This document shows positions 12,925 through 40,286 of a stretch of DNA of 57,918 bases, piece after piece; positions within the stretch are counted from its first letter, which is position 1, and every line of letters starts with the position of its first letter. Source of the stretch: a virus. The notes under the pieces were generated by a model. That model searched no databases and was not told the origin of the DNA. It was given only the letters and a program-made list of their open reading frames with translations. The stretch covers positions 1 through 57,918 of the IMG/VR virus record IMGVR_UViG_3300032799_000270, one strand, 5' to 3'. A program made the position numbers and the translations under genes.

Positions 12925-13422
12925 TCAATCCCGGCGTGCGATCCAGGCTACCGCCACGACCCCCAGGCCGGCCAGCCAGACCCAGAGGGGAATGTTCTCC
13001 AGGTTGGGGATGATGGAGGCTAGTTGTGGCTCGACCGAGCCTGTCAGCGGCGCTGTGACGCCGTAGACCTCGGCTCTCCCCAGAACGTCCTGAGCGTACT
13101 GCCAGGATTCGGGAGGCGTGGTCCCCCGGGCCATGTTCCCCGGCCCGCCGTTGTAGGCCGCCAAGGCTTTGGTCCAGTCGCCGAACTGCCGGTAGAGCTT
13201 GGAGAGATAGGCAATTCCGCCTTCGATGTTTTCGGTTTCATTGTACGGGTTCACGCCCAGGTCCGAAGCGGTCCCCGGCATGAGTTGGAAGACGCCCACT
13301 TCTCCGGCCCTGCCGCGGGCGCCCTGGTTGAAGCCCGATTCCTGTTGAGCGACGGCCAAGGCCAAAGCCGGGTCTACCCCGTAACGCAGCGCGGTCTCGC
13401 GGATCTGGTCCTGGATGGCCAT
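12925..13422 (-). CDS. Membrane-anchored lytic transglycosylase
   Basis: 165 residues. An SLT domain comes first: AVAQQESGFNQ (catalytic Glu28), GEVGVFQLMPGTASDLG, and AYNGGPGN. A single C-terminal membrane helix follows (PLWVWLAGLGVVAVAWIARRD). It cleaves the glycan strands of peptidoglycan. A transglycosylase anchored this way recalls virion-membrane enzymes such as PRD1 P7, though a host-lysis role is equally possible. It sits next to an M15 peptidase. The start has CAGGAGTGG upstream and follows the previous stop by one base. Confidence 0.85.
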   Translation of the reverse strand: MAIQDQIRETALRYGVDPALALAVAQQESGFNQGARGRAGEVGVFQLMPGTASDLGVNPYNETENIEGGIAYLSKLYRQFGDWTKALAAYNGGPGNMARGTTPPESWQYAQDVLGRAEVYGVTAPLTGSVEPQLASIIPNLENIPLWVWLAGLGVVAVAWIARRD

Positions 13423-13423
13423 G

Positions 13424-13948
13424 TCAAGCTTCCACTCCTGACACGTCAGGGAAGATTCTTGGGAGCACTTGGGCCAGGGCCACGGTTCGGCCGTCCTCGT
13501 CGTAGCCCCATTGAACCCGGGCCAGAGTAGCCCGCACATCCACGTGGACGTAATCAGGATGCCCCTGACGGCCCTTGGAAGATTCTGGAGCGGCTGGAGG
13601 AGCCAGGCCGATGCCTTGGAAGCCGGGAACCTGGAGCGCGGCCTGGTAAACCTCCCCAAGCGGTCGCGTGGGACATTGCACGTCGGCCGCCCGGCCCGGT
13701 AAGCCCGTATGAGGGTTGTAGAGGTGCTGGCTCGACGCCTTGCCGCCCTCATGCTTGTTCCAGGCGGCACAACGGCAACCGCTGGTGATGAGGAGCCGGT
13801 GTTCCTTTTGGCCTTCCGTGAGGTTGGCATTCAGGATCGCTCGCCAAGCTTCCAAGCCCTCGATCAACTCAGGGGCTATCAGCGGCTCCCCGCAGTTCCC
13901 ACAGTGGCACTTGAACTCATTCGAGTCGAAGTGGGCCGAGAGCTTCAT
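13424..13948 (-). CDS. Peptidase M15A-like endolysin
   Basis: 174 residues. Zinc ligands of the M15 family are recognisable: H75 in SSQH, D89 in GRAADV and H135 in YVHVDV, with ITSGCRC in the usual strand. Family members cleave D-Ala peptide cross-links in peptidoglycan. Extra Cys (CHCGNCG) near the N-terminus may hold another metal or disulfides. No signal peptide. Together with the transglycosylase it forms a wall-degradation pair. Confidence 0.85.
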   Translation of the reverse strand: MKLSAHFDSNEFKCHCGNCGEPLIAPELIEGLEAWRAILNANLTEGQKEHRLLITSGCRCAAWNKHEGGKASSQHLYNPHTGLPGRAADVQCPTRPLGEVYQAALQVPGFQGIGLAPPAAPESSKGRQGHPDYVHVDVRATLARVQWGYDEDGRTVALAQVLPRIFPDVSGVEA

Positions 13949-14148
13949 ACCAGTTTACCGCCTGCCACTTCAGAAAACCATTCGCCGCACGACAGGATCG
14001 GATGGGGATGCTCTGTATCGCACAGCGGGGAAGGACGATGGGCCGTGAGTTTGGGATCGTCCAGAAAAAACAGAACGGTTTCATGAGCGGGGTAAGGAGG
14101 TTCGTATCTGCACTCCGTCTGCCTTGGTCTTGGTGTCGATTTATCCAT
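13945..14148 (-). CDS. Unknown small protein
   Basis: 67 residues from ATG 14148 (an upstream TTG would add 17). It contains ETVLFFLDDPKLTAHRPSP and CDTEHPHPILSCGEWF. The stop overlaps the M15 start (ATGA). It is preceded by a strong hairpin, so its expression may be tuned. No family recognised. Confidence 0.5.
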   Translation of the reverse strand: MDKSTPRPRQTECRYEPPYPAHETVLFFLDDPKLTAHRPSPLCDTEHPHPILSCGEWFSEVAGGKLV

Positions 14149-14168
14149 ATAAACAAATCGAAATATAA

Positions 14169-14210
14169 CGGGAGCGCCCCCGCCGGTCGGTGTGGACAAG
14201 GACGCTCCCG
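14169..14210 (-). terminator. Intra-operon hairpin
   Basis: Perfect 8-bp arms CGGGAGCG and CGCTCCCG with a 26-base loop between two genes. It has no U-run and probably acts as an attenuator or RNA-stability element. Confidence 0.4.
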
Positions 14211-14244
14211 GGCGAACCCCGAAGACAGCGGGCCTCTTCGGAGA

Positions 14245-20978: not shown

Positions 20979-21962
20979 TCAATATCTCGCGTAGGTGACG
21001 AAGCCGCCACCCGTCACGGCCGCCGAGGTCGTCAGACACAGCGCATTGGCGACCGGCACGGTTACCAGCGAACGGCCTTCCAGGTCCAATGCCAAACTGA
21101 GGATGTTGGTGTAGGCCCCGGAGATAGCCGTCGTTCCTACGCCGCAGTTCGCCCCGGTTCCGTAGACCAAGGTAAGGTTCGTCGCGCCGGAATAGGACAG
21201 CGACAGATGACAGACCCGGATCTGGTCGCCTGCGGCCAGGGCGACGATTTCCAGTGTTCCAGCTCCCGCAATAGTGATGGCCGCTCGCTCCGTGCAGGCT
21301 GGCACTGGGGTATAGGCTGTGGCCGCCCCGTCGTAGTATTCCTGGCCTGCCGACAAGGGGTTGGCTAGTGTTCCGAACGGGTTGGTACCATCACTGAGCC
21401 GGCTGAACAGCGGGTTCGCCTGAGTTCCTTGCGCCGCCGCTCCGTCCGACAAGTAGACTGGCCAGCGGTTTACGGCGGTGTTTGCTGCGCCCTGATTGGC
21501 CGTTACGACCGCTCCCGGAGCAAAGCTCACAATGCTAAGGGATCGGTAGCCGTAAAAGGTCCCGCGCAACCTCCGTCCCGCTCCCGCCACCGCCCCAGTC
21601 AGCGTGATGCGCTGCCAGGGGTAGTAGCCGTACAGAATCGTGGAAGCCTGGGTCAAGGCCACATTCGGGTTCACACCTTCCAGTGTCGCTCCAGCGAACG
21701 CCACCCAAGCCGCCGGGGCGCCGTTGTTGTCCGCCGAGGATTGAAAGGTCAGCGTGAGGGCGGGGAAACCCGTGCTGGTGTAGGCCACGTACCAGCTCTT
21801 GCAGCCGATGAAGCGGTTGTCAAAACTCGCGCTTGAACCGTTGCCTGTGAAGTCGAAGAAGATCATGCAGTCCGGGATGACGTTCACCGGCGTGGTCAGC
21901 GGTTGCGCCCAGAGCGCAGAACCAAACAGCAGAACGAAGATCAGAACTCTAGCGCCGCGCAT
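20979..21962 (-). CDS. Secreted beta-rich protein
   Basis: 327 residues with a signal peptide (RGARVLIFVLLFGSALWAQ). A beta-sandwich-like N-terminal part (TLTFQSSADNNGAPAAWVAF) and a C-terminal part ending LALDLEGRSLVTVPVANALCLTTSAAVTGGGFVTYARY. The last strand resembles those ending other proteins in this module. Probably virion surface. Confidence 0.6.
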   Translation of the reverse strand: MRGARVLIFVLLFGSALWAQPLTTPVNVIPDCMIFFDFTGNGSSASFDNRFIGCKSWYVAYTSTGFPALTLTFQSSADNNGAPAAWVAFAGATLEGVNPNVALTQASTILYGYYPWQRITLTGAVAGAGRRLRGTFYGYRSLSIVSFAPGAVVTANQGAANTAVNRWPVYLSDGAAAQGTQANPLFSRLSDGTNPFGTLANPLSAGQEYYDGAATAYTPVPACTERAAITIAGAGTLEIVALAAGDQIRVCHLSLSYSGATNLTLVYGTGANCGVGTTAISGAYTNILSLALDLEGRSLVTVPVANALCLTTSAAVTGGGFVTYARY

Positions 21963-23769
21963 AAAGCAAAATCTCCAATCCGGCCACAATCTGAGTGGCC
22001 ATGGGCAGAATGCCTCCGCTCAGGTTTGGCACGTTGACGATGTACCGCAGGGTCTGCCCGCTCTGGATCTGAATGCCGCCGTCCAACCCGTATGCCTGCT
22101 GGCGGCTGCCGAGTCGTACTAGCACGTTGCCCAGGTGAATCGCGTAGGTCCGATTGACCTGGAGCCTCCACTGGATGTCCCCGTTGCCGTCCGCGAAGCC
22201 GGGACCCGTGTAATCATGGAACAGGGCGGTAATCAGCCCATCGTAGCCGGTGGGAACCCGGAAGTTGAAGATCTCCACGTCTCCCGAAATCGCCAGAGGG
22301 GTAGGGATGGCCCCAGTCGGCCGGCGCGAGATGAAATCCTTCGGCGCCCTCACGCTGTCGATGTCCACCCAGGTCTCCTGCTGGCAGCAGGTCCGCGCTC
22401 GCATAAACTGCTGCTCGCCCTTCAGTTGCTCCTGAAGGCAACGGTCGAACTGGTTCGGGACCAGAACCACCATGCGCCGGGAACCGGCCAGGGGGATGAC
22501 CGCGGGCGCCCCGGGAGGCCCGGCAATCGAAAACCAGTAGAAGCTACCGGCAACAGGAAAGCCTCCAATGAGCCCTGACATGCCCACGAGAAGCATCGGG
22601 TCCACCACATCCATGATGGGCGGCGAAAGGTAGTATATCGGCCCGCCTGGCGGATCGAAAGACGGGTTGGCCAATTCGTCGTGGAAGATCGTACCGGCGG
22701 CGATCGGACCGCCGCTGTAAGTTGCGAACAGGATGCGCGAGAGGGGTGTCAAACCATCGAGCGTCGTTTGCTCCACCCACCACAGATAGGTTTGCCCGCC
22801 CAGCGTGGAAGCGTGGATGCTCCCCGAGCGGGCCGTGCCCTCCGCATTCAGCCGCTGGGTCGGAACGGCTACTTGAGTGATGGCAGGATTCGGAGCCGTG
22901 TAAGGATCGACCACCAGCATCCCGCCGGTCCAGTACTGGTCCAGTTCGGAAGTTCCGTTTTCGACCGGGAACGGGAAGATCAGCATAGTTCCGACGCGGT
23001 CGGGAAAGCCGAAGGTCTGGTCCGAGATGAAGTTGTAGGTGTAGACCACCACTGGGGCGGTCATCACGCCGGCGGAACTGATCTGGCGGTAGTACACAAT
23101 CCGGGGCTTCTGGGGGCCGACTCGCGGCCGCTCGCTGTAGATCACATGCGCCGTGCCCGCCGGGTCCATGTAGATAGCTTCGAGGCAGCAGAGCTTGCTC
23201 TGCGGCAGAAGCACGTTGTCACTGACCACGATGGGGGCCAGAAAGCCCACGCCGTCGTGCCGGTAAAGCGTGATCTGCTGGCCTACAAAGAAGACGGGGG
23301 CTACTGTGGCAGCATAAATCCAATCCTCGGCCATCACGACATTACGATGGTAGCCGGCAATCTGCGGGGCCAGGGCTGCAAACGCATCGCAGTTGAACAA
23401 GAGCGGGCCGAGCGTGTTGGTAATGCAGTCGAAATCCCGCACGGCGGGGATATTCAAACCGGCAGTTTCGGGAGGCCCCCCAGGGTAGCAGATGCGGATT
23501 GTGTCTGCGTTAAGCCTGGCGGTTGCCACCAGCAAATTACCACCGCTGGGCATAGCCGCCACGTCCTGAGAAGCCCAGGTTAAACCGGCATCTGCGCTTC
23601 GGTACACTCGCAGATCAGCCGAGGCTTCGCCTGTTGCGATGAACCAACTGGCGTACCGCTCATTGCCTCTGATGTGAGGACCGGGATAGTTGCAGCTTTG
23701 CCCTCTGACATGGAACCAAGACGTGAAATCCACGCCAGCCAGAAACGGTCCTTGGGCAGTGTATGGCAT
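21949..23769 (-). CDS. Large propeller protein with shared C-terminal beta-domain
   Basis: 606 residues, no signal peptide. The N-terminal 450 residues look like a beta-propeller; YRSADAGLTWASQD is an Asp-box of the sialidase type. The last ~110 residues (FNFRVPTGYDGLITALFHD ... LRYIVNVPNL) clearly match the C-terminal half of the next gene, so a common virion-attachment domain is likely. The propeller may bind or cut host glycans. Starts right at the previous stop. Confidence 0.7.
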   Translation of the reverse strand: MPYTAQGPFLAGVDFTSWFHVRGQSCNYPGPHIRGNERYASWFIATGEASADLRVYRSADAGLTWASQDVAAMPSGGNLLVATARLNADTIRICYPGGPPETAGLNIPAVRDFDCITNTLGPLLFNCDAFAALAPQIAGYHRNVVMAEDWIYAATVAPVFFVGQQITLYRHDGVGFLAPIVVSDNVLLPQSKLCCLEAIYMDPAGTAHVIYSERPRVGPQKPRIVYYRQISSAGVMTAPVVVYTYNFISDQTFGFPDRVGTMLIFPFPVENGTSELDQYWTGGMLVVDPYTAPNPAITQVAVPTQRLNAEGTARSGSIHASTLGGQTYLWWVEQTTLDGLTPLSRILFATYSGGPIAAGTIFHDELANPSFDPPGGPIYYLSPPIMDVVDPMLLVGMSGLIGGFPVAGSFYWFSIAGPPGAPAVIPLAGSRRMVVLVPNQFDRCLQEQLKGEQQFMRARTCCQQETWVDIDSVRAPKDFISRRPTGAIPTPLAISGDVEIFNFRVPTGYDGLITALFHDYTGPGFADGNGDIQWRLQVNRTYAIHLGNVLVRLGSRQQAYGLDGGIQIQSGQTLRYIVNVPNLSGGILPMATQIVAGLEILLYARR

Positions 23770-24381
23770 TCAGGGCCTCGGGTAGAACCAGCCGTATATG
23801 GCGCACAGGATGCGCCCGTTCGGATCGAGCAAAGCGAAGTTGTTCACCCGTGCGATGTAGCGGATGGTCTCGTGGCTGTAGATCCGAATGCCTCCCCCGC
23901 TCAGCGAAGAGGGCGCCTGTAAATCACCCAGGCTGGTGAGGATCTGCCCGTAGTCGGGAGCATACCGCCGGGAAAGCTGGATGCGCCATTCGATGTCGCT
24001 TGAGCCTTCGACAAAACCAGCCCCAATGAAGCGGTTGACCATCCCCATAATCACGCCGTCGTACCCCATGGGAACCTGAAACCCCACAACTCCGGTATCG
24101 GTCGCCAAGGGGAAAACGGCAAGAGGCAGGGTGTTGATTTCCTGGTAGCGCCTGCCCTGTTGAGGCATCTTGACCCAGGGGGGTTCGTCGTCGGAATACT
24201 TCATCGACTCGGCCCTTCGGCACAGACCCGTAATCCCGCCACAGCATTGGATGTTGTACCAGATGGCCGTGTCCTGGGCCAGACAAGCATCGAAGTGGTT
24301 GCCCGGCTTGCCGTGGCACATCGGGAAACCGTGGCCCGCCGGGAAGGGCTGCGGAATTCGCAAGGTCCCGAGGTGTCTCAT
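23770..24381 (-). CDS. Virion protein sharing the attachment-like domain
   Basis: 203 residues. Residues ~86-203 (FQVPMGYDGVIMGMVNRF ... DIEWRIQLSRRY ... IRYIARVNNF) align with the end of the propeller protein. The N-terminal part has several Cys and His (CHGKPG, CCGGITGLCRR). Possibly the capsid-bound base to which the propeller homologue is related. ATGA start. Confidence 0.65.
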   Translation of the reverse strand: MRHLGTLRIPQPFPAGHGFPMCHGKPGNHFDACLAQDTAIWYNIQCCGGITGLCRRAESMKYSDDEPPWVKMPQQGRRYQEINTLPLAVFPLATDTGVVGFQVPMGYDGVIMGMVNRFIGAGFVEGSSDIEWRIQLSRRYAPDYGQILTSLGDLQAPSSLSGGGIRIYSHETIRYIARVNNFALLDPNGRILCAIYGWFYPRP

Positions 24382-24917
24382 TGCTTGTAGACCTCGCAGG
24401 GTTCGGCCGTAAAGATGATGAGCTGGGGCCGGATCGCCACGGCCGCCGTGTTAGCGATGTCCACCGCCAGCAGGCCCGGTTCCAAGATGAGTCTCGGCTG
24501 GGTCAGGAGATGCGGCAGCATGGCATTGCGTTGATCGGTGAGAGTAGCTTGCAGGCTGCTGAAGGCCGTCCCTTGCACGAAGTCGCTGAAGAACGGGATT
24601 CCGTTGCACGTGTCGGTGATCTGGAGCCACACGTCGTTGGCCGCGATCTGGGCGAACGGGGCTACCAGCCCGAAGCGGTTGCAGAGCAAGGCCCACACGT
24701 AGGACCGGGGCGTGACCCGAAGCTGATATTCCAAGGTCCGGTAGGCCGCGATGGTCGAGTTCTCGTCGTCGGGGATGACGTACCACTTGGGCCGGTACGT
24801 GTTGGCCCGCCTGAGCACGTCCAGGGCTCCTAAGGCGCTCGCCATGTAGTAGCCCGGACGATAGCGGATCGCCGGATTCAGCGTGAAGGCGTCGATGATG
24901 GAAGGCAGTCCGTTCAT
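24378..24917 (-). CDS. Putative capsid-module protein
   Basis: 179 residues, beta-rich. PRLILEPGLLAVDIANTA followed by a strand (QLIIFTAEPC) resembles the corresponding segment of the 24928-25794 protein (ERFITPAGLLAMDLYTVA then a strand). It is probably a single-domain member of the same family. AGGAGAAAACC precedes the ATG. Confidence 0.6.
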   Translation of the reverse strand: MNGLPSIIDAFTLNPAIRYRPGYYMASALGALDVLRRANTYRPKWYVIPDDENSTIAAYRTLEYQLRVTPRSYVWALLCNRFGLVAPFAQIAANDVWLQITDTCNGIPFFSDFVQGTAFSSLQATLTDQRNAMLPHLLTQPRLILEPGLLAVDIANTAAVAIRPQLIIFTAEPCEVYKQ

Positions 24918-25821: not shown

Positions 25822-26250
25822 CTAGCGCCGCGCCGCCGGCAACCGATACCGCTTGGCTCCGCGCAGAACGATCTGCACCGTGTTCGGAGCCGCCGACAGT
25901 TCGTTGATCTCGATGCCAATTCGGGAGCCTGCCGGCATGAGCAACTCGGGGAAGATCGGATACGGGTACGGAACCGTCCCCGACAGCAGGTTGGCCGACA
26001 GCATGAAGCCCGAACTCAGGTAGTAGCCTTGGCTGTCGTTGAACCGGAACGAAAACGCTCCGGTGGCCTGGCTGAGAATCACGGCCCGCCACACGAAGTC
26101 GCTATCGGTGTGGATCGGGACCGACTGATCTCTCAGGATCTGGGACGCCAGCAGGTTCACGTCGTACACGTAGTCGAAGCTGACATCCACGAAACCCAGT
26201 GGGAACTCGGGAACCAGTCCATTTTGAACCGGCGTTGCGTAGGGGTTCAT
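25822..26250 (-). CDS. Single beta-domain protein, capsid-family candidate
   Basis: 142 residues. SDFVWRAVILSQ, YPIFPELLMPAGSRIGIEI and TVQIVLRGAKRYRL match each half of the 24928-25794 protein in order and spacing. It is probably a penton, minor or second capsid protein. A strong AAAAGGAGGG site precedes the ATG, and two large hairpins lie upstream, separating it from the 26420-27061 gene. Confidence 0.65.
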   Translation of the reverse strand: MNPYATPVQNGLVPEFPLGFVDVSFDYVYDVNLLASQILRDQSVPIHTDSDFVWRAVILSQATGAFSFRFNDSQGYYLSSGFMLSANLLSGTVPYPYPIFPELLMPAGSRIGIEINELSAAPNTVQIVLRGAKRYRLPAARR

Positions 26251-28042: not shown

Positions 28043-28125
28043 TTTGCACTCTCCTTCCCCCTGAAACATCCAGGGGCTCGTCTTCACCCTGGTTGCCCAG
28101 GGGGAAATCTTTCTGGCCGAAAGCA

Positions 28126-28379: not shown

Positions 28380-29060
28380 ATGTACGACAAAATCTGTCCT
28401 TGGTGTTCTGCCTCGTTCCGAACAAACCGTAGGTGGAGGATATACTGCTCCAAACGGTGTTCGCTGGTGCATCGGAACACCAAACCGAGAGAACAGGTCT
28501 TCGTAACGAAACAGTGTCCGGAGTGCCAAAAAACGTTCGAATCCAGAAGATGTCTGCGCCTCACCTTCTGCTGCCGAAAGTGTGCAAGGGATTATCACGG
28601 TTTCCACAACCGTCTGCCCGTTGCAATTCGTCTCTATAGAAGAATCCAGAAAACTGAAATCGGCTGTTGGAACTTCATGGGATACAGAGATCAAGCCGGG
28701 TACGGTCGCATCGTTTGTGGAGGAAAGTTGAGACCCGCACATCGCGTTTCCTACGAACTCCAGTACGGTGTTATCCCCCAAGGCTTGGAGATTAACCATC
28801 TCTGCAAAAATAGAGCTTGCGTGAACCCTGAGCATTTGGAAGCCGTGACTCATCGGGAAAACGTCCAGTATTCCAAGGGAACTACCGCAACACGTTGGGG
28901 TTGTGGTCATGAAAGAACCGAAGCGAACACGATGCGAAGAAGAACCGGAATCGAGCAATGCCGAATGTGTCTTCGCCGCCAAGCTAGGCAGTCCTACTGG
29001 AGACATGCAGAAAAACGCCGCCAAGCAGTTAAGTCCCACTACCATAGCGTCAATCAATAA
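28380..29060 (+). CDS. HNH homing endonuclease
   Basis: 226 residues on the strand opposite the surrounding operon. N-terminal zinc fingers (CPWCSASFRTNRRWRIYCSKRC; CPECQKTFESRRCLRLTFCCRKC) are followed by an HNH core (GCWNFMGYRDQAGYGRI, AHRVSYELQYG, GLEINHLCKNRACVNPEHLEAVTHREN) typical of free-standing homing endonucleases. It would cut an allele lacking the gene and promote its own copying. Start ATG 28380 has GGAGG upstream. Its end overlaps the 29050 gene by 11 bp. An independent invader. Confidence 0.85.
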   Translation: MYDKICPWCSASFRTNRRWRIYCSKRCSLVHRNTKPREQVFVTKQCPECQKTFESRRCLRLTFCCRKCARDYHGFHNRLPVAIRLYRRIQKTEIGCWNFMGYRDQAGYGRIVCGGKLRPAHRVSYELQYGVIPQGLEINHLCKNRACVNPEHLEAVTHRENVQYSKGTTATRWGCGHERTEANTMRRRTGIEQCRMCLRRQARQSYWRHAEKRRQAVKSHYHSVNQ

Positions 29061-31332
29061 TGCCTGGATCTTCCACACGGTATGCGCCTCCAGAGATGCT
29101 CAACAGCTTGTTGATCGGGTCATAAAGGAGGAACGGTTGACGCCCTGATTCCTCCCCAAGTTGGTGTTCATAGTCCGTTAACTTGAAGTTCTGAAACCCC
29201 TTTTCTGTTTGATAAACGAGCGAGGTCAACACCCCGATCGCCATGGAATCCTTCAGCCACTTCTCGCCGTCCATCTTCAAGGCTTTCAAATCCAACTCCT
29301 GATCGCCGCCTTCGATGTACAACTGCTGGCCGTCTTCCGAACTGCACAGGTTGGGAGCGCCCTTTGTGAAGCTGATTGTGGCCTCCAGGTTGGTCAGCGT
29401 GGCGACCTTCAATTCGACCAGGAGCCCCAACTGAGTGAGCCACTCGTGCTCCCGCTTCTCGGTGACGATCTCCAGGGTTTCGCCTGGAGGCTTCCCGTGG
29501 AAGTCTTCGTAGAGCGCAGCGGCATCGGATTCAGGATTACTTCGCCCTCTACCCACCAAACTATTCCAGGAGTTTACAGCATTGTCCGTTTCAGGAAACC
29601 TCACCTTTTTTTCCAAACGGGAATGGAGTGTCCCACGACGTGCTGGCTGGTTCGGGTCTGAGCTGATAGTCCCGCCAGGATGCAGCGCGGGGCTGGGGAC
29701 CTCCACGTAGAGAGGCTTGCCAAAAGGTTGGTCCCCAGGACCGTATGCTCTGCCGCGAATCACCGCTACCGGCAAACCATAACTGCTTGCACTGTGCTTC
29801 GTGGTCAGCCGAACTTCAACAGCACGCCCTTTGGCGTCGTAGGTTATGACCCTTTCGTCTCTTGGCGGATTCCCGGCACGTCGAGCCTTGGCCGCAATTC
29901 GCTGAAACCGCTTCGTGCCGTACTTGCGCCTCCCGATCCACGCCGCCAATGCACCAGGGTCTTCCACGCCGGGCCGGGCCGCAAGTTTCGACTCCAGGGC
30001 AGCGAAGCGTTCGCCAGAGCCGAGATCGTCCTCAGGATTCCGCCGCCGCATGAGCAGGCCCTGGCCGGTCACGGTAGAGATATGACCAATGAGCTTCTTG
30101 TAATTGGGAACGCCGTAGGCGCTCTTGATCCGGTAGATGTTGCCGGTCCCCCGGTCGAGCATAAATGCGCCGCTAGTGCCTTCATCCAGCATGGCCCACC
30201 GCTGCTTGTACTTCACGGTATGCGGATAGTACGTATCGTAGTTGAGGTTCGGGGCATCATGCTCGAATCTGGCACGACCGGCCTCATGCCAGTCCTTCAA
30301 AAGCACGTCCACCTTGGACTTCCACTCTTCAGGCCAATCGGGAGCAGGATTCTCATACGCCTCGCACAGGTCCTGCGCCGTCATGGCCGCCGCCTGCTCG
30401 TCAGGGGTGGCCTCCTGAAACTCTGGCCGGGTGGTCATGCCCAAGTGCTCATCGTAGGAGGTAATGGCGTCGGCTACGTCGGGGGCGGGGTTCTGTCTCC
30501 GAATCTGCCGGATGAAACTGTCAAGCAGATTCTGCGCCTCGGCCTCCGAAAGCCCCGAAACGTCGTAGACCTCTCCCGACCCGCCGCCCATGAACACCTT
30601 TACCCCATGGGAGGACATCAGCCGGTAAACTTTACGGGCTTGGTCAATTGAGGTCCCTGCAGATGGGCTGTTCACGAAGGTTCGGAAAAGTTGTTTGTGC
30701 GGTGGGTCCACGTCCGCCCATCCGACGATGTGAATAGGTCCGAGGTCTTGTGGATAAAAACCGGGGGTGGGGTTTACCTTCGCCCTTGCCTCGTCGTTCC
30801 ATCCACGCATGAAGTCGCCCCAGGCGTATCCCCACTCTTCACGATCCGCAATACTCGGTGTGAGATTGACTGTGCCGTGTTGGGCAGCAGCATAACGAAG
30901 TTTGGAGCGACCGGCGCGGTAGGCATCGCTTTGATGGGCAGGTTGCGGGTTCGGCCTTGTCCCCGGCACAATCGTCCTGAACTCCTTGTACTTCCCCGGC
31001 GACTGCTGCCGGAACCGCCAGAAGGTGGCGCCCTCATCCTTGCCGCTGCCCGTGAATCCATGCTCCTGAAGCCAGGTCTTCGCGGCGTCTCCAGTCCACT
31101 TCAGCTTGTCGAAGATCACGGACTGAACTTCGGAGATCCGGCGACCGGCTTTCCGTGCGATGCCCAGCACGAACTTGATGCCGCTGTCGGGATTCGCCAT
31201 AGCTCCGATCAGCAACTCCACGTCGGGGACGGGAGCGGCGAGCAGTGCTCCGACCTTGGCCAAGGTTGAAGGCCGATGTTTGGCGGCCCGGTGGATGGCA
31301 TGATGCTTACGGGCTGTGGCGTGTCGTGCCAT
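29050..31332 (-). CDS. Large multidomain protein with NP-linked modules
   Basis: 760 residues, the largest protein here. A basic N-terminus (MARHATARKHHAIHRAAKHR) precedes domains separated by eight NP-containing linkers (ANPDSG, RPNPQP, VNPTPG, QNPAPD, ENPAPD, RNPEDD, GNPPRD, SNPESD). No membrane segment and no catalytic motif. The NP linkers recur in neighbouring genes and might be cleavage or docking sites. It is probably an internal virion protein. Starts in a TAATG overlap. Confidence 0.55.
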   Translation of the reverse strand: MARHATARKHHAIHRAAKHRPSTLAKVGALLAAPVPDVELLIGAMANPDSGIKFVLGIARKAGRRISEVQSVIFDKLKWTGDAAKTWLQEHGFTGSGKDEGATFWRFRQQSPGKYKEFRTIVPGTRPNPQPAHQSDAYRAGRSKLRYAAAQHGTVNLTPSIADREEWGYAWGDFMRGWNDEARAKVNPTPGFYPQDLGPIHIVGWADVDPPHKQLFRTFVNSPSAGTSIDQARKVYRLMSSHGVKVFMGGGSGEVYDVSGLSEAEAQNLLDSFIRQIRRQNPAPDVADAITSYDEHLGMTTRPEFQEATPDEQAAAMTAQDLCEAYENPAPDWPEEWKSKVDVLLKDWHEAGRARFEHDAPNLNYDTYYPHTVKYKQRWAMLDEGTSGAFMLDRGTGNIYRIKSAYGVPNYKKLIGHISTVTGQGLLMRRRNPEDDLGSGERFAALESKLAARPGVEDPGALAAWIGRRKYGTKRFQRIAAKARRAGNPPRDERVITYDAKGRAVEVRLTTKHSASSYGLPVAVIRGRAYGPGDQPFGKPLYVEVPSPALHPGGTISSDPNQPARRGTLHSRLEKKVRFPETDNAVNSWNSLVGRGRSNPESDAAALYEDFHGKPPGETLEIVTEKREHEWLTQLGLLVELKVATLTNLEATISFTKGAPNLCSSEDGQQLYIEGGDQELDLKALKMDGEKWLKDSMAIGVLTSLVYQTEKGFQNFKLTDYEHQLGEESGRQPFLLYDPINKLLSISGGAYRVEDPGIID

Positions 31333-31637
31333 TAGCGTTTCCTGGTCATCATGAACAGCGTGGCGGCTCCCACTCCGGCAATCACCAGCCACATGGCGGG
31401 CGCCCGGCAGTAGACCGTATCGCCGGCCGATTGCAGATCCTCGTACCACTTGCAAGGAGCTTCGACCTGGCGGGCGTAGTCCCGTTCGATATAGACCGTG
31501 GGCGACGGCTGGTAAGCGGGGTACATCATGGGGAATGGAGGCCCCGGTGGTGGACCCGGCGGTGGCGGCCACGGTGGAGGTGGTGGAGGCGGGGGTGGTC
31601 CGTTGCCGATCCCCAGAAGTGTTGCATTGGTCATCAT
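31332..31637 (-). CDS. Proline-rich tail-anchored protein
   Basis: 101 residues. After a short start comes a long polyproline tract, then YIERDYARQVEAPCKWYED and a C-terminal membrane helix (MWLVIAGVGAATLFMMTRKR). AGGAGGACAGC lies before the ATG, which overlaps the upstream stop (TGATG). First of the run of C-anchored small proteins. Confidence 0.6.
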   Translation of the reverse strand: MMTNATLLGIGNGPPPPPPPPPWPPPPGPPPGPPFPMMYPAYQPSPTVYIERDYARQVEAPCKWYEDLQSAGDTVYCRAPAMWLVIAGVGAATLFMMTRKR

Positions 31638-32818
31638 CAAGCTGTCCTCCTGTAAGCTCCGGTATGCCCGTAGTGCCGGCGCCTCAATCTCCAAATCTCC
31701 CTGGAAAACCGGGAGCGGTCATCGGCGGAAGTCGCATGAACCATCTCGACGGCCGCCGGAACCGTCATGGCATCCGATTCGCCTTTCATGGTCAGCAGAG
31801 CCAGAGCGTACTGCCGGTAGCTTTCCGCTCCCCTGGCTGCGGGGTTGTATTGCCGGGTGAGACGCCCATATCCAGAAGCCCGCAGAGTGTTGGCGTGCAG
31901 CATGTTGCAACTTCGGCAAGTCCAGATCAGATTTTCAGGCCGGTCGTTCTCTTCGTGCCCATCGACGTGTCCGATCTGAACCTGCTGATTAGTTCCGCAG
32001 AAGGCGCAGAGTTTCGGCCCGATGGGAGGATTGGCGTTGGCCCGGTATCGGTAGGCTCGGTCGGTGAGGTGGAGTTGCGGATTCCTCCGCTGCGCATCCA
32101 CAAACCGCTTGGCGTCCTTCAGGCTATCAAACCGACTGTCGGGGTCAATCGACACCTGATACCCGTCCCCAACCCTGAAAATCCTAGTGCCCTTGTAGCC
32201 GAAACTGGGGGCCTGGGCTGTTCTGTTGTCACCCTCCTCGACCCCACGCCAGAACTCGCGCTCCAGCCTGCTGCGGATCTGCGGAGACCGCTTGTCGAGC
32301 TTGGCCTTGACTAGCCACGGCTCAAATCCTGAGGTGTCCCCGATCCGTGCTCCGGCTTGGCGTGCCGCTACCATGGCCTCGGAGAAGGTGGGACCGGCGG
32401 GGTTTTGCTCTGCCATGCTTCGGGCTACGGACTCCAATATTTCATCCCTCAGGTTTGGATTCGTCAAAGGTTCGGCAACAGCAGCCGGATGGTAAACGGC
32501 ATAGTCCAGACTCCCGATTCCGTGTTTAGGGCCAGACCAACCGTGCTGTAGCCACCATTGCAACGCGAATGCTCGTGGCACAATCAACTGTGGGACGCCG
32601 GGCATCCGAATTTGTTCCTTGAGCACAACCTCTGTAAGTCTTGAATGCCTTGGGTTCTGCTCGGCGCAGTAGTAATGCACCTTCCCGCCCTGCTCGCTGA
32701 ACTTCCAGGTCTGGCCCGGAAGAATCGGCTTGTCGCACACCTTGCAACGCGAGGCCAGGGCGTAGAACTTCTTCAGGCTGGGTGCCCCGACTGCCCGTCT
32801 TGTGTCCTGTGCCGCCAT
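31637..32818 (-). CDS. HNH-domain protein with N-terminal zinc site
   Basis: 393 residues. An N-terminal LIM-like site (CKVCDKPILPGQTWKF ... VHYYC) and a C-terminal HNH-like core (LCAFCGTNQQVQIGHVDGHEENDRPENLIWTCRSCN). The middle has NP linkers as in its neighbours. The nuclease core looks complete, so DNA cutting is possible, for instance in genome processing or exclusion of rivals. Operon position suggests a virion-linked role. Start has GGAGGCAAG upstream. Confidence 0.65.
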   Translation of the reverse strand: MAAQDTRRAVGAPSLKKFYALASRCKVCDKPILPGQTWKFSEQGGKVHYYCAEQNPRHSRLTEVVLKEQIRMPGVPQLIVPRAFALQWWLQHGWSGPKHGIGSLDYAVYHPAAVAEPLTNPNLRDEILESVARSMAEQNPAGPTFSEAMVAARQAGARIGDTSGFEPWLVKAKLDKRSPQIRSRLEREFWRGVEEGDNRTAQAPSFGYKGTRIFRVGDGYQVSIDPDSRFDSLKDAKRFVDAQRRNPQLHLTDRAYRYRANANPPIGPKLCAFCGTNQQVQIGHVDGHEENDRPENLIWTCRSCNMLHANTLRASGYGRLTRQYNPAARGAESYRQYALALLTMKGESDAMTVPAAVEMVHATSADDRSRFSREIWRLRRRHYGHTGAYRRTA

Positions 32819-32822
32819 ACTG

Positions 32823-33311: not shown

Positions 33312-33320
33312 GTTTCGACT

Positions 33321-33906: not shown

Positions 33907-34118
33907 CACGCCTCCCACGGGCTCCGCATGGGCCGAAACTCGACCGCCTGATTCATCGCCTCTTGCCTCTCGGCACACCCGCCGCACTGCCGAATGTGGA
34001 GGGCGTCGGTCAACTGCTTGATGAGATCCCCACCGCGTACCCGTTCCTGAAGGAATGGGACTGGGATGCTCAAGAGTTGACGAACGCCCCCCTCTTCGGT
34101 GTTTGGGAAAAAGCTCAT
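33906..34118 (-). CDS. Small soluble protein with a CxxC motif
   Basis: 70 residues (LLSIPVPFLQERVRGGDLI, HIRQCGGCAERQEAMNQ). Coupled at both ends by overlaps. CGGC could bind metal. No family recognised. Confidence 0.5.
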   Translation of the reverse strand: MSFFPNTEEGGVRQLLSIPVPFLQERVRGGDLIKQLTDALHIRQCGGCAERQEAMNQAVEFRPMRSPWEA

Positions 34119-34591
34119 ACGAACTTCTGATACCTCCTCGGCCTTGCGGCCCTGATACTGGCCACTTTGGCTTTGTACTGAGCGCGGGCGGCTGCAATCT
34201 CTGATCTACGTTGACTTCCGCCGCCACCCGTGAACAGCACCAGACCGACGATGCCCACCCCTACTACGGCCCAGGTCTTCCAGTCGCCCATTGACGAGGT
34301 GACGGATTTCAGCACGTCATCAACCGCCCCGTCCAAACCACACAACCCGACTTCGCAACGACGAGCAGGGGGGCCGCAACCGAGACCAACCGGCCCCAGG
34401 GGATTTTCCTCAACCGCTTCGGCCAGTTTCTGTTTGGCCAGGATTTCAAGCACAATCGGGTTGGGAGCCCAGGTCGAGATGCCGCTCACGATGGCGCTCA
34501 ACCCGAAGGCCCGGCGGATCGGGTTCTCGGGGATCGACCACAGGGCCGGCAGGAAGACCCCGATGCCGGGAGCGAGATGGGATGTCAGCAT
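34115..34591 (-). CDS. Membrane protein with SIPENP motif
   Basis: 158 residues. An N-terminal hydrophobic region with WSIPENPIRRAFGLSAIV, a Cys loop (CGPPARRCEVGLCG), a membrane helix (TWAVVGVGIVGLVLFTGGGG) and a basic tail (SIRAARPRRYQKF). SIPENP and its DNA match the end of the basic 27176-28042 protein, so the two may interact or derive from each other. AAGAGGTGACT precedes the ATG. Confidence 0.6.
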   Translation of the reverse strand: MLTSHLAPGIGVFLPALWSIPENPIRRAFGLSAIVSGISTWAPNPIVLEILAKQKLAEAVEENPLGPVGLGCGPPARRCEVGLCGLDGAVDDVLKSVTSSMGDWKTWAVVGVGIVGLVLFTGGGGSQRRSEIAAARAQYKAKVASIRAARPRRYQKFV

Positions 34592-34593
34592 AG

Positions 34594-35013: not shown

Positions 35014-35014
35014 G

Positions 35015-35242: not shown

Positions 35243-35480
35243 GCTGCCCTCCCAGTCTCACCCGCCCGTAGCCGTCCATGTGGAACCGGAGCTTTCCGAA
35301 GTTGCTCCGTAAGGCCCGGTCGATCTCCTTCTTGTGCGTCCCGTAGATGCCCCGTAGCAACAGGTTGGGAGAACCTTCGACCAGACGCTCCAGAACGCGG
35401 ATCGCCAGGATGTCCACCCGTCCGGTCGGGTCGGGCCCGCGCCGGCGAACAGGAACCGAATTGGTCTTGGCCTTGGCCAT
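35232..35480 (-). CDS. Small basic protein
   Basis: 82 residues. MAKAKTNSVPVRRRGPDPTG, then VDILAIRVLERLVEGSPNLLLRG and KKEIDRALRSNFGKLRFHMDG. Helical and basic with no membrane segment. Start in a TAATG overlap with the 35480-35659 gene. May bind nucleic acid. Confidence 0.55.
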   Translation of the reverse strand: MAKAKTNSVPVRRRGPDPTGRVDILAIRVLERLVEGSPNLLLRGIYGTHKKEIDRALRSNFGKLRFHMDGYGRVRLGGQHAR

Positions 35481-35659
35481 TACCGCTTCCTTGCTTTTGC
35501 CTTTCTGCTGGTCTTCTTCTTTCTGCCGCCGAAGATCAAAGCTCCAGCGGCCACCGCAGCGGCAAGCCACCACCAGGCCGGAAACGAACACGGAACTTCG
35601 GCTTCAGCCAGGGCGCTCTCGTAGCAGCCCTCGGGAATCTGCCAAGCGTAGCAGTCCAT
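35480..35659 (-). CDS. 59-residue tail-anchored membrane protein
   Basis: MDCYAWQIPEGCYES, then a helix (PAWWWLAAAVAAGALIFGG) and a very basic end (RKKKTSRKAKARKR). The stop overlaps the next ATG (TAATG) and the start follows the previous stop closely. Short enough to be missed by automatic annotation. Confidence 0.6.
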   Translation of the reverse strand: MDCYAWQIPEGCYESALAEAEVPCSFPAWWWLAAAVAAGALIFGGRKKKTSRKAKARKR

Positions 35660-35668
35660 GATCGGCTC

Positions 35669-36315: not shown

Positions 36316-37136
36316 TTACCGCTCCCCATGACGAGAAACAGAACCAGCGCCGCTCCACCGACTAGGAGCAACGGATTCGAGGTGAGCGACTCCATCCAAC
36401 TAGGAGCCACTTCTTGCTTTGCCTGGTCCGCCAAGGTTTCCACGACGGTTTTCTGTGGAGGCGGTGCGGGTTGTGGCACGGCTTCGACCACGAAGGCCAG
36501 TTGTCCCGCCGCCACTCCACCCACGCTGAAGTCCTGCACCCAGGTCCCGATTTCGGCCGAGGTCATCCGGCCGCCGGTAGTCCAGACGCCGGAACTGTTG
36601 GTACGGCCCATCACGGTTCGGTTGCGTTGGCCGGCGGGCCCGCCTACCGATAGCACGTCGGAGTTAGGAGGCCCCGAAACTTCCAGAGTCCAGGAATCGC
36701 CGACTCGCAGCAGAGACGTGTTGCCCGTCGAGGTATTGCGAAAAGACAAGGTGGCATTGTAGCGAGATTCTTCTCTGCCAACGTAGCGGCCCTCTTCTCC
36801 GGCAGAGGGAATCACGGCAGGCTTTTCGGCCGCTGGCACGTATGCCGGTGGCGTTTCTTCGGCCGAAAACATGAGCCGATAGCGGTCTGCCTGAATGGTG
36901 GCGATGTTCTCCGGGCTGTAGATCCACCAGGGCTGACCAGACTGAGTGAGGTCCGTGGACAGTTCAGGGTAGCCCGTCATCCTCATCCATACCCTGACGT
37001 TGGGAATGGAAAGCCTCTGAGGTTCGACGTTACTCTCCATGCGTGTAGTGAAGCCGCGAGCCTGAAGCGAAGCCGCAACGGAGGCCGCAAACTCCTCCAC
37101 TGTCATGGCCCCAAGGCTCCCCAAGCTGAGCATCAT
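36312..37136 (-). CDS. Tail-anchored protein with a beta-domain
   Basis: 274 residues. A helical start (MTVEEFAASVAASLQARGF), a beta-sandwich-like middle (SLSFRNTS-type strands, SWTLEVSGPPNSD, VWTTGGRMTSAEIGTWVQDF), a Pro/Lys linker and a C-terminal helix (SNPLLLVGGAALVLFLVMGSGK). A candidate external spike or vertex protein held in a membrane. Confidence 0.6.
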   Translation of the reverse strand: MMLSLGSLGAMTVEEFAASVAASLQARGFTTRMESNVEPQRLSIPNVRVWMRMTGYPELSTDLTQSGQPWWIYSPENIATIQADRYRLMFSAEETPPAYVPAAEKPAVIPSAGEEGRYVGREESRYNATLSFRNTSTGNTSLLRVGDSWTLEVSGPPNSDVLSVGGPAGQRNRTVMGRTNSSGVWTTGGRMTSAEIGTWVQDFSVGGVAAGQLAFVVEAVPQPAPPPQKTVVETLADQAKQEVAPSWMESLTSNPLLLVGGAALVLFLVMGSGK

Positions 37137-37870
37137 TTCCCACCTCCCGCAGTCAGACCCAGCACCAGCAACGCCGCAGCTCCGACGAGCAACAGCCCAC
37201 CTCCACCCGCTCCTCCATCCGTGAACAACCCGCCCGTCAGGGTGTCGATCAGCGATCCGTCCACGCCCAGAATAGGATCGGGCTTCACGTTCGGATCGTT
37301 GGCGATCGGGTCCCGGTAGCCCACGAACCAGTTCCAACATCCCCCAGCTTCTTGCCATTGGCACGACCCGGCTTGGCGATCCGAGATGCAACGCTTCCCC
37401 GGTTCGCCGTACTGTTCCAGTTCGCAGTTCTCGACTAGCGTGTTCCAGACCGCATCGAAGTTGGCCAGCGCCTGAGCTTGAGAGGAAACCGTGTGCGGGC
37501 CGGCTTGGTAGGCGCGGACGTTCTCCTGAAGCATGGGCTCAAGCTCGTTCACGATCTCCGTGGTCTGCACCTTCTGATGGGGGCCTTTGCGATTGAACCA
37601 GGCGGTCAACGCGAGAACCACCGCAGCTACAGCCACGCCGATAATGGGGATGGCCAATGATGCCGCAGCCGCTCCTGTCGCAGCTCCACCACTCGCAGCC
37701 GCTGCGCTACCTCCAGCCCACAAAGGAGCTGTGCCCATGGCAATTGCCCCAGCCGAGGAAACAGATTGCAAAGCGATCCTCTGCCCTGCGGTCTGTTGCC
37801 CCAAGCCGTAGACTCCCTGCATCCCCGAGGACCAGGGAGAGTAGGCCGGGCTGAGGGGCTGCAATCGCAC
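37133..37870 (-). CDS. Tail-anchored membrane protein with conserved soluble core
   Basis: 245 residues. A hydrophobic Ala/Gly segment (SLAIPIIGVAVAAVVLALTAWF), a conserved-looking core (VNELEPMLQENVRAYQAGPHTVSSQAQALANFDAVWNTL, Cys-rich CISDRQAGSCQWQEAGGCWNWF) and a C-terminal helix (GGGLLLVGAAALLVLGLTAGGGK). I have seen this core in other metagenomic phages but know no function. Starts at GTG right after the previous stop. Confidence 0.6.
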   Translation of the reverse strand: MRLQPLSPAYSPWSSGMQGVYGLGQQTAGQRIALQSVSSAGAIAMGTAPLWAGGSAAAASGGAATGAAAASLAIPIIGVAVAAVVLALTAWFNRKGPHQKVQTTEIVNELEPMLQENVRAYQAGPHTVSSQAQALANFDAVWNTLVENCELEQYGEPGKRCISDRQAGSCQWQEAGGCWNWFVGYRDPIANDPNVKPDPILGVDGSLIDTLTGGLFTDGGAGGGGLLLVGAAALLVLGLTAGGGK

Positions 37871-38485: not shown

Positions 38486-38488
38486 CGT

Positions 38489-38800
38489 CTACCTCCTCCT
38501 CCCGATCCGAATCTGGATCTGCCCGCCCTTGCGCGAGACCATGGCCGGGGTCCACCGGCTGGGGATGGCGGGATTATTCTCCGTGAGTGGTGAGTCGGAG
38601 CTTGCAAAAACCCGGCCACGGCTGTCCTCTACCCAAACCCATGCCCCATCACCAATACGGTCGTAGGCTGCCAGCAAGCCACGAAGGTCCCGAACGCCTC
38701 TGATGCCTTCATCGACGGCCCACTTTCTGGCGGCTGCATCCAACGTGGCTGCTCTTACATCACCCGAAGCGGCGTCCGATTTGAAATAATAAGTAGGCAC
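38489..38800 (-). CDS. Small protein, paralogue of the next gene's tail
   Basis: 103 residues. GTG 38800 follows GGAGGAGATAAAC. The last 22 residues (SRWTPAMVSRKGGQIQIRIG) match the end of the 38803-39273 protein, within a ~75-bp DNA repeat about 306 bp away. A recent tandem duplication. Function unknown. Confidence 0.55.
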   Translation of the reverse strand: MPTYYFKSDAASGDVRAATLDAAARKWAVDEGIRGVRDLRGLLAAYDRIGDGAWVWVEDSRGRVFASSDSPLTENNPAIPSRWTPAMVSRKGGQIQIRIGRRR

Positions 38801-38802
38801 GT

Positions 38803-39273
38803 TTATCTCCTCCCCATCCGGATCTGGATCTGCCCGCCCTTGCGCGAGACCGTGGCCGAGGTCCACCGGGTCGGGATGGCAGAGGGGCCGGGGTTCGCCT
38901 GTGCGCCTGCCTTGTCACCCACAACGGCCCACTGCCCGTGAACCTTTCTGGCGCGGAATGAACCAGGCACGAAGAAGCCAGAGCGTGTCTGCTTGTAGAC
39001 GTTGTTGTAACGCGCCATCTCTTCGGCTTGAGACTTCGACTGCGCGTAACTCCAAATGTGGATGGCAGAGGGGCCGGGGTTCTGCGCTCTGCCTTTAACT
39101 TTGCGAGCGTGTTCGGTGGGAACGTCGTGGAGACCGGAAGAGGGCGTGTCAATCACCATGCGGCCGCCAGCCTTGATCTGCTTCACGCGACCATGGAGGC
39201 GCTTGCCAAACCACGGAACGGATACAGTATCCCCAACTCGAAAACGAACGTGAGGGTTTGACCGTCTTGCCAT
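38803..39273 (-). CDS. Unknown protein with internal NPGPSAI repeat
   Basis: 156 residues. A KOW-like beta start (VRFRVGDTVSVPWFGKRLHGRVKQIKAGGRMVI), then two NPGPSAI modules and the tail shared with its neighbour. Could bind DNA or RNA through the beta-barrel start, by inference. AAGAGGTGAACG precedes the ATG. Confidence 0.5.
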   Translation of the reverse strand: MARRSNPHVRFRVGDTVSVPWFGKRLHGRVKQIKAGGRMVIDTPSSGLHDVPTEHARKVKGRAQNPGPSAIHIWSYAQSKSQAEEMARYNNVYKQTRSGFFVPGSFRARKVHGQWAVVGDKAGAQANPGPSAIPTRWTSATVSRKGGQIQIRMGRR

Positions 39274-39276
39274 CGT

Positions 39277-39615
39277 TCACCTCTTGGCCAGCATGAACAC
39301 CAGCAACAGCGCGGCGCCGCCGAGCAGCACCAACCCCATGCCAGGGCTGCCCTGCGCCGATACTCCCACTGTCCCAACCGGCAACGTCACTTGGCTGCCC
39401 GCCGGCTGCACGTAGGTGAACACGCCCGGTGAGGTCTGGGTCAGTACGCCGCGGGCGATGTTCTGCTGTGTGAGAATGTTCTGCCCGGTTTTGCTCCAGC
39501 CCGCAATCTGTTCGGAGAGAATGTCCCAGAAGCCCTTGCCTGATGCGGCAGTGTTTTCCTGAGCAACCTCTCCTGATTGGCCCAGCCCGCAAGGCGGATA
39601 GCAGCCTAGCATCAT
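39277..39615 (-). CDS. Tail-anchored membrane protein
   Basis: 112 residues with GFWDILSEQIAGWSKTGQNIL, a turn-rich middle and a C-terminal helix (GMGLVLLGGAALLLVFMLAKR). Starts in an ATGA overlap with the protease-like gene. Another of the anchored set. Confidence 0.6.
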   Translation of the reverse strand: MMLGCYPPCGLGQSGEVAQENTAASGKGFWDILSEQIAGWSKTGQNILTQQNIARGVLTQTSPGVFTYVQPAGSQVTLPVGTVGVSAQGSPGMGLVLLGGAALLLVFMLAKR

Positions 39616-40286
39616 GACGCTCTCCTTCTCCGACCAAGCAACATCTGCATCAGGGTAGGCCACAAGGCAATCAGAAAGAGGCCCGCCACGATCCAATCCC
39701 GGAGGCCCGCGTCCATCGGCCATTCCTGCCGGCGCGTCACGTTCTCGGAAACTTCCCACCCAGGGTACTGCCCGTGCGACGTATCGAGGGCGATTCGCCC
39801 TGACCCTGGATACGCCGCTACGTACACGTGGGAGAACTGACCGGGGATTCGGGGATCGGCCGCCGCCGTCACGAAGCTCGACCGGATGCCGTGCGCCATG
39901 AGCAGCGCCGCGGTGAGCATGGCGTAGTCGTCGCAGTCCCCGACCTGTCGTTGCCCCGTGTCCTCCCGCCAGGTCACCATGTCCACGGGCCGGATCAGCA
40001 CCTCTACCACGGGAATGTCCGCCAGGCCCATCTTCGACAACCGGGAGGATAACGGTTCAGCCGTGCGCTCATCGTGCTGGAAGCGGATTAACTGCTTGAC
40101 GTGCCAGAACACGGCCTCGATGGGATCTACGCCTGGAGGCGCAACCGTGGCTGCATCCTTTATTACTGTGGGGTTGCGCGAGTCTTCGCAGACGTACCGC
40201 GTCATCAGGCTGATCGTGTCGGCCACCTGCTGATCCGGGTCGTCGCCGGTCAGGGTGGCTTCCCATTTGAGGGTCGCCGGCAGCAT
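39612..40286 (-). CDS. Membrane-anchored transglutaminase-like protein
   Basis: 224 residues. The papain-like transglutaminase core has C118 (GDCDDYAMLTAALL), H153 (FSHVYVAAYP) and D168 (ALDTSHG). A C-terminal membrane helix (WIVAGLFLIALWPTLMQML) and an Arg tail follow. Relatives are proteases or amidases. As first gene of the long operon it might process virion proteins or wall peptides. The NP linkers of downstream products are speculative targets. Confidence 0.75.
   Translation of the reverse strand: MLPATLKWEATLTGDDPDQQVADTISLMTRYVCEDSRNPTVIKDAATVAPPGVDPIEAVFWHVKQLIRFQHDERTAEPLSSRLSKMGLADIPVVEVLIRPVDMVTWREDTGQRQVGDCDDYAMLTAALLMAHGIRSSFVTAAADPRIPGQFSHVYVAAYPGSGRIALDTSHGQYPGWEVSENVTRRQEWPMDAGLRDWIVAGLFLIALWPTLMQMLLGRRRRAS

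Follow-up and report, generated by a model that had tools for sequence, protein, structure and literature searches.

The window analyzed here is the whole of IMG/VR record IMGVR_UViG_3300032799_000270 (57,918 bp), and its virion operon region spans positions 12925–40286. We conclude that this genome probably belongs to a tailless bacterial virus of an undescribed lineage (~47–62 kb), with a particle that is likely icosahedral with an internal lipid membrane and a shell that would be co-assembled around membrane and DNA. A sequence-only reading of the same DNA had proposed that the virus is tailless, contains a membrane, and has a large genome; this proposal is supported, although not proven, by the tail anchors found in all ten of the larger relatives described below, by their likeness in design to those of phage PM2, by the jelly-roll proteins encoded in a conserved gene module, and by the lack of recognizable tailed-phage hallmarks across 24 contigs.

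An exact 123-bp direct repeat at the two contig ends closes the sequence into a ~57.8-kb circle; because the repeat has the length that assemblers leave on circular contigs, we read it as circularity and not as a biological terminal repeat, that is, the window is a complete circular genome of ~58 kb. Genes (referred to by the first of their coordinates) were called with a home-made codon model, so their start sites are approximate. Pfam and PHROGs scans of the window proteins identify genes for lysis, recombination, methylation, partition, and replication; the window encodes a ParB-like protein, a serine resolvase, a DnaA-like domain, PEP-CTERM proteins, and a methyltransferase.

A collinear core in related circular genomes

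Relatives were sought in IMG/VR, which yielded 23 contigs in addition to the window, many of them 38–62 kb. The first scan identified a single relative with conserved synteny, G001 (55.3 kb). The set grew to 12 contigs with a degenerate DNA pattern for 26420 (GKTLxxTN...LPxP) followed by an alignment-based scan, and 11 further contigs, all with a transglutaminase-like gene nearby, came from a search with aligned sequences of the 37133 membrane protein. Several relatives are circular genomes of 47–62 kb: exact terminal repeats of 97–127 bp close seven of them (G005 to G010 and G012), the terminal repeat in G001 is just 23 bp, and no such repeat is present in G002, G003, G004, and G011. As expected of a circle, synteny spans the contig ends of G007, with the transglutaminase gene at one end and the divergent neighbor of that gene at the other.

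Ten larger genomes (44–62 kb) share a common gene order: 39612 with the divergent 40436, 37133, the end of 29050, 27176, 26420, 25822, 24928, 24378, and 23770. Of these, 40436 is found in nine of the ten and 27176 is not recognized in G006; for 24928, the best matches of G010 and G011 lie within longer genes further downstream. In two 24-kb contigs (G003 and G004) the end of 29050, 26420, and 25822 are recognizable, with similar-looking neighbors. The tested core proteins have no match by tblastn among 50,697 reference phage records (a collection that includes PM2), nor did 72,556 plasmid records yield a match to the universal protein 26420; profile searches of PDB sequences with four core alignments (A11, A15, A17, and A18) gave nothing meaningful, and no provirus was found in the genome contigs scanned with alignments A2 and A3. 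We found no description of this lineage in the open-access papers of PMC, which is weak evidence of absence; the Charybdis element (PMC12324425) was considered and rejected as the same thing, as that report concerns 4.6 kb marine elements.

Tail-anchored and predicted jelly-roll proteins of the virion operon

A single hydropathy criterion for a C-terminal membrane helix was applied to all gene sets, with 50 residue shuffles for the window operon. In the operon, 14 of 40 genes encode such a helix (shuffled mean 2.2, maximum 5), although 14453 and 20979, two of the 14, do not qualify as clean tail anchors; outside the operon, the window has 2 in 52 genes. Phage lambda has 1 in 58 (shuffled 1.1), PM2 has 3 in 19, and PRD1 has 5 in 26, only a modest excess over its shuffled mean of 1.9. 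The ten larger relatives, analyzed in full, have 8–15 C-terminal helices per genome (shuffled means 0.7–2.4). PM2 P3 ends in TLLLGFGGLLVLGLVMRGNK and P8 in NNQLLIVGAVVIGLFLVIKRK, the same design as the ends of 36312 (LLLVGGAALVLFLVMGSGK) and 39277 (MGLVLLGGAALLLVFMLAKR). The sequence-only reading had counted at least eleven operon proteins that end in a helix and a short tail; eleven of the twelve that it named pass our criterion, and the twelfth, 36070, falls just under the cut-off yet has a visible helix and basic tail (NPILAALLLGTGYVLLRRTS). A further case beyond that list is 34115, with a longer basic tail. Two other ideas about these proteins were discarded: they are not cysteine-rich (1.76% Cys vs 1.51%), and as candidates for sortase-type signals they gave insignificant matches to NCBIfam PFE-CTERM and MYXO-CTERM, for one anchor only.

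Several features of the sequences of these and neighboring proteins are recorded here. The N-terminus of 34115–34591 and the C-terminus of 27176–28042 both carry WSIPENPxR, which suggests a common short interaction segment. The adjacent genes 38489–38800 and 38803–39186 encode nearly identical C-termini (a 74-bp repeat, 92%), that is, a tandem duplication of a basic tail. The proteins encoded by 26420–40286 contain the Asn-Pro dipeptide 36 times (shuffled mean 7, maximum 14), as compared with 2.6 per 1000 amino acids (aa) elsewhere in the window; these dipeptides are often beside basic residues and could be processing sites or linkers.

The conserved module also encodes a family of predicted jelly-roll proteins. 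The two halves of 24928 are related to one another (profile comparison with orthologs added, probability 89%, E 2.6e-7), and its structural model, although modest (predicted local distance difference test score, pLDDT, of 41 overall), includes an eight-strand sandwich in the C-terminal half at pLDDT ~60. The top structural matches of this half are mostly viral jelly rolls (Z 8–9.4): first come the cement protein of the Helicobacter phages KHP30/40 (Z 9.4) and satellite panicum mosaic virus (Z 9.3), and three viruses with an internal membrane, HHIV-2, HCIV-1, and SH1, are represented by their capsid proteins (Z 8.0–8.4); the model also matches capsid proteins in BFVD. Profile comparisons connect 24928 to the single-domain 25822, and 25822, more weakly, to the single-domain 24378; a rerun for 24378 and 25822 was weaker than the first comparison (probability 49% vs 87%), and pairs with the unrelated core families A16–A18 all gave probabilities below 1%. 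We therefore describe 24928 as a duplicated protein of predicted jelly-roll type with single-domain relatives. The universal 26420 shows no relation to this family by profile comparison and is kept more widely than 24928, which is not recognized in the 24-kb contigs; both 26420 and 24928 are candidates for the main shell protein.

Tailed-phage hallmarks, packaging ATPases, and other genes

The sequence-only reading noted no terminase, portal, or other tailed-phage hallmark, and Pfam, PHROGs, six-frame hidden Markov model (HMM), and Walker A tests agree in detecting no terminase, portal, or HK97 capsid. When 80 window proteins were compared with Pfam, 32 families matched, and among the 25 listed none is a family of terminases, portals, capsids, or tail proteins. 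With six-frame HMMs, Terminase_6N is not found in the window or its 23 relatives (nor in the window Pfam and PHROG lists), Phage_capsid (PF05065, the HK97 capsid) is not found in the 24 contigs, and Phage_portal (PF04860) is not found in them at E up to 10, other portal families being covered by the window scans only. PHROGs scans of the window place tail or head labels on three genes only: 12925, through its SLT domain; 15169–16938, through a domain of fibre type; and 19168–20085, a glycine-rich protein whose tail-type matches are of low complexity. The 'tape measure' label on 12925 was rejected, as it derives from the SLT domain alone.

That reading also suggested a search for an A32/FtsK-type packaging ATPase, which was not found: six-frame HMM searches of six records detected no FtsK, and Walker A motifs are absent from all predicted genes of the window and of G001, although the same pattern picks up the packaging ATPases of PM2 (P9) and PRD1 as positive controls. 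P-loop proteins of the relatives are patchy (AAA_24 type, VapE, DEAD and UvrD helicases, and HerA type) and none is in the shared core; the HerA-type (DUF87) ATPases occur in G003, G010, and G011, that is, in 3 of 24 contigs, and not in the window.

The first operon gene, 39612, encodes a transglutaminase-like protein that is probably active, as a protease or cross-linker, since Cys118, His153, and Asp168 (as well as Asp117) are invariant across 11 aligned orthologs and Pfam Transglut_core matches 7 of the 11; the gene lies near an A18-family gene in all 11 of the further contigs. The predicted activities of the tail-anchored SLT transglycosylase and the M15 endolysin fit roles in entry or lysis. 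From its composition, 27176 is proposed to be a DNA-condensing, membrane-associated nucleoprotein. The divergent 40436–42301 has no significant Pfam or PHROG family. The features are collected in Table 1.

Table 1. Positions of the jelly-roll, core, enzyme, and tail-anchored protein genes in the window.
Feature	Coordinates	Strand	Basis
Internally duplicated jelly-roll protein (double-jelly-roll-like), candidate capsid protein	24928..25794	-	Profile comparison and model of C-terminal half
Jelly-roll-family protein with one domain, candidate for a penton or minor capsid role	25822..26250	-	Related to both 24928 halves (98.9%, 98.5%)
Single-domain protein, distant relative of 25822	24378..24917	-	Profile probability 87%, E 4e-6
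Universal protein of ~210 aa with the signature GKTLxxTNxxxxxLPAPE, candidate for the major capsid protein	26420..27061	-	In 12 of 12 fully analyzed relatives
Transglutaminase-like cysteine enzyme, C-terminal membrane helix and RRRR tail; first operon gene	39612..40286	-	Pfam Transglut_core
Conserved two-helix membrane protein, Cys/Trp-rich domain (CWNWFVGYRDPIANDP)	37133..37870	-	Orthologs in 10 of 10 larger genomes and 11 more contigs
HNH-endonuclease-like protein	31637..32818	-	PHROG HNH, E 1e-4; relatives in G001, G003, G005, G009
760-aa protein, C-terminal ~165 aa conserved across lineage	29050..31332	-	12 of 12 fully analyzed relatives, 30–75% identity
Strongly basic protein, Arg/Lys-rich N-terminal half, hydrophobic C-terminal half	27176..28042	-	10-member alignment
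Beta-rich protein, paralog of C-terminus of 21949–23769	23770..24381	-	
606-aa protein, C-terminal domain resembling 23770	21949..23769	-	
Fibre or spike-like protein, signal-like N-terminal helix	15169..16938	-	PHROG tail-fibre domain, residues 427–532, E 8.7e-15
M15 peptidase endolysin	13424..13948	-	PHROG endolysin E 7.5e-18; Pfam Peptidase_M15_3 E 8.3e-11 in window set
Tail-anchored SLT lytic transglycosylase	12925..13422	-	Pfam SLT E 4.4e-25; tail WVWLAGLGVVAVAWIARRD
621-aa protein, divergent neighbor of transglutaminase-like gene	40436..42301	+	Orthologs in 9 genomes, adjoining in each
Tail-anchored protein, 111 aa	39277..39612	-	Tail MGLVLLGGAALLLVFMLAKR; orthologs in G001, G002, G005, G007
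Tail-anchored protein, 273 aa	36312..37133	-	Tail LLLVGGAALVLFLVMGSGK; weak relatives in G006, G007, G012
Small tail-anchored protein, 81 aa	36070..36315	-	C-terminus NPILAALLLGTGYVLLRRTS, read directly; below cut-off; orthologs in G001, G005
Small tail-anchored protein, 59 aa, long basic tail	35480..35659	-	Hydropathy; ortholog in G001
Small tail-anchored protein, 75 aa	35015..35242	-	Hydropathy criterion
Tail-anchored protein, 139 aa	34594..35013	-	Hydropathy criterion
Late membrane helix and 33-aa basic tail	34115..34591	-	Hydropathy; orthologs in G001, G002
Small tail-anchored protein, 74 aa	33682..33906	-	Hydropathy criterion
Tail-anchored protein, 148 aa	32823..33269	-	Hydropathy criterion
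Small tail-anchored protein, 64 aa	31332..31526	-	Hydropathy criterion

Large fibre or surface-type proteins on the minus strand (8925, 9829, 10603, 15169, 17331, 19168, 20087, and 20979) have Sec-signal-like N-termini, which is unusual for phage spikes; similar N-termini are present in G001, G003–G005, and G008–G011, and none were found in G006, G007, and G012. Positions 107–2896 are a probable insertion element that encodes a DDE transposase (open reading frame 1017–1841) and is bounded by inverted repeats of 33 bp with 82% complementarity; it has no relatives in the other genomes of the lineage. It is flanked by a duplicated segment of ~400 bp (2998–3426 and 57493–57918, 78–96% over its parts), each copy of which encodes a PEP-CTERM protein (3057–3599, full; 57552–57761, short). 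An array of a 24-bp repeat (TGTCCGGCGTTTCGGTGGTCAACT) at 54434–54824 is a candidate for iterons or a partition site near the replication-type genes, and 42944–43854 contains intergenic repeats rich in TCTTGTC and GAGTC-type words.

Proposed assembly, alternatives, and significance

The gene content suggests the following route to a particle. The many tail-anchored proteins would mark out a patch of the cytoplasmic membrane by inserting into it; 27176, which is rich in Arg and Lys and seems suited to a nucleoprotein role, would condense the circular genome and tether it to the patch; and the jelly-roll proteins (24928, 25822, and 24378) together with 26420 would build the shell over membrane and DNA at once. 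Co-assembly of this kind, which has been proposed for PM2 and agrees with the presence of a nucleoprotein core in portogloboviruses, would take the place of the ATP-driven filling of an empty shell. The tail-anchored transglutaminase-like enzyme may process or cross-link virion proteins, and the tail-anchored transglycosylase and M15 endolysin may open peptidoglycan at entry or exit.

Parts of this scheme have counterparts in described viruses. PM2 (Corticoviridae, Vinavirales) shares with the window a circular double-stranded DNA (dsDNA) genome and several small proteins, in PM2 P3, P8, and gp j, in which a single terminal helix is followed by a short basic tail; its membrane, DNA, and shell are proposed to assemble concurrently, enclosing supercoiled DNA, although it has an ATPase (PMC6356626), a likeness in which the assembly of the window virus is read from its genes. 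M15 endolysins occur in PM2 relatives such as Jorvik (PMC10589892), as in the window. However, the window genome is ~6 times larger, has no counterpart of the P9 packaging ATPase (whose Walker A motif was found), and its tested core proteins have no sequence match to the phage collection that contains PM2. In Portogloboviridae (Sulfolobus polyhedral virus 1), circular DNA is held as nucleoprotein under a membrane and a jelly-roll shell, and polymerases and replication initiators are not recognizable (PMC8459092); the circular contig and basic 27176 of the window, known from its genes, fit the former. These viruses are, however, archaeal, 20 kb, and presumably nonlytic, whereas the window is 58 kb with an endolysin, a transglycosylase, and DnaA-like replication genes, and no sequence relation was seen in the phage collection. 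The Odin group (7–11 kb) and the FLiP group (Finnlakeviridae, up to 17 kb) are jelly-roll viruses that, like the window, have a jelly-roll capsid module without a packaging ATPase, and the Odin group has ParB-family nucleases and sporadic M15 genes (PMC5894146) that recall those of the window; in contrast to the window, both have small genomes, and those of the FLiP type are single-stranded DNA.

Sphaerolipoviridae and relatives (HCIV-1, HHIV-2, and SH1) have single-jelly-roll capsid proteins over an internal membrane, the proteins matched by the C-terminal half of 24928; they use two single-jelly-roll major capsid proteins, and the window has 25822 and 24378 as single-domain relatives of 24928. 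Viruses of this type are expected to have a packaging ATPase, and the window has none that we recognize. Their genomes are linear and ~30 kb (PMC12643093), unlike the window. Caudoviricetes resemble the window in genome size, in endolysin and transglycosylase domains, and in one fibre-type domain, but neither a tail module nor a terminase, portal, or HK97 capsid was detected in the 24 contigs.

Several points weigh against a motor-less, membrane-containing icosahedral virus. The jelly-roll model has a pLDDT of just ~60 with moderate Z scores, the N-terminal half of 24928 is poorly modeled, and, as the top match is a phage cement protein, the fold alone is no proof of a shell protein; 26420 has no recognized fold (its model was built from two sequences, pLDDT 30). 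The Sec-signal-like N-termini of several fibre-like proteins are not explained by the proposed model, and 15169–16938 has a fibre-type domain common to tailed phages. To our knowledge, motor-free packaging of 58 kb of dsDNA has no precedent in an icosahedral prokaryotic virus. Furthermore, the HerA-type ATPases of G003, G010, and G011 could serve there as packaging motors and may represent a borrowed or replaced motor. It is plausible, if doubtful, that this is the same type of virus with ATP-driven packaging, by a host FtsK/HerA-type ATPase or by a viral ATPase that has diverged beyond recognition and that some members have lost or replaced. Among double-jelly-roll viruses (Varidnaviria), an ATPase for packaging is encoded by most genomes (PMC5894146), but neither the window nor G001 has a Walker A gene, and the ATPases of the other relatives lie outside the collinear core.

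In a further alternative, the virus is pleomorphic, enveloped, or filamentous and leaves through the membrane by budding or extrusion. With the tail-anchored proteins as envelope or coat and no icosahedral shell, this would account for the many single-helix membrane proteins, the lack of a motor, and the large surface-type proteins with Sec-signal-like N-termini; we consider this unlikely, as the conserved, internally duplicated jelly-roll family points to a shell and the two enzymes that degrade peptidoglycan point to lytic release, and PM2 has the same tail anchors within an icosahedral shell. It is also quite unlikely that this is a tailed phage in which divergence has put every terminase, portal, capsid, and tail gene beyond detection, with jelly rolls as decorations or fibres and membrane proteins for host takeover or lysis: the cement-protein match of 24928, the fibre-domain matches of 15169, and the M15 and SLT lysis genes would agree with it, whereas the HMM searches of 24 related contigs found no hallmark, terminases require the Walker A motif that no window gene has, and lambda has few tail anchors. 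Least probable is that the window is no virus and instead a large plasmid-like element that places adhesins and envelope proteins on its host; its ParB-like, resolvase, DnaA-like, PEP-CTERM, and methyltransferase genes and lack of a motor would suit such an element, but its collinear core recurs across many contigs of a virus collection, includes a universal protein unmatched in plasmid records, and is accompanied by an endolysin and transglycosylase, a fibre-type domain, and viral-type jelly rolls.

A tailless virus with an internal membrane thus best accommodates the observations. Known tailless membrane phages of bacteria are small (~9–17 kb), and those that have no packaging ATPase are among the smallest; the window genome is about 4–6 times the typical size of known tailless internal-membrane viruses, which is 10–15 kb, and, if our reading is true, we know of no tailless membrane phage of bacteria as large as this lineage. 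As a tailless jelly-roll virus with a membrane, the lineage would be of a known kind; motor-free packaging of 58 kb might deserve more, if shown. We propose tentatively, with somewhat less than even confidence, that the genomes define a new high-rank lineage of bacterial viruses with 47–62 kb circular dsDNA, jelly-roll shells, internal membranes, and motor-less packaging around a membrane-bound nucleoprotein. The 26420 signature and the transglutaminase-like gene beside a 37133-type membrane protein provide markers for finding more members and their hosts. If true, the proposal would mean that genome size and dependence on a packaging ATPase are separable, and a lineage of ~60 kb circular genomes that has a jelly-roll and membrane module and lacks a motor would show an alternative way to enclose large dsDNA genomes; it would also explain why surveys that rely on terminase, HK97 capsid, or packaging-ATPase markers miss such viruses.

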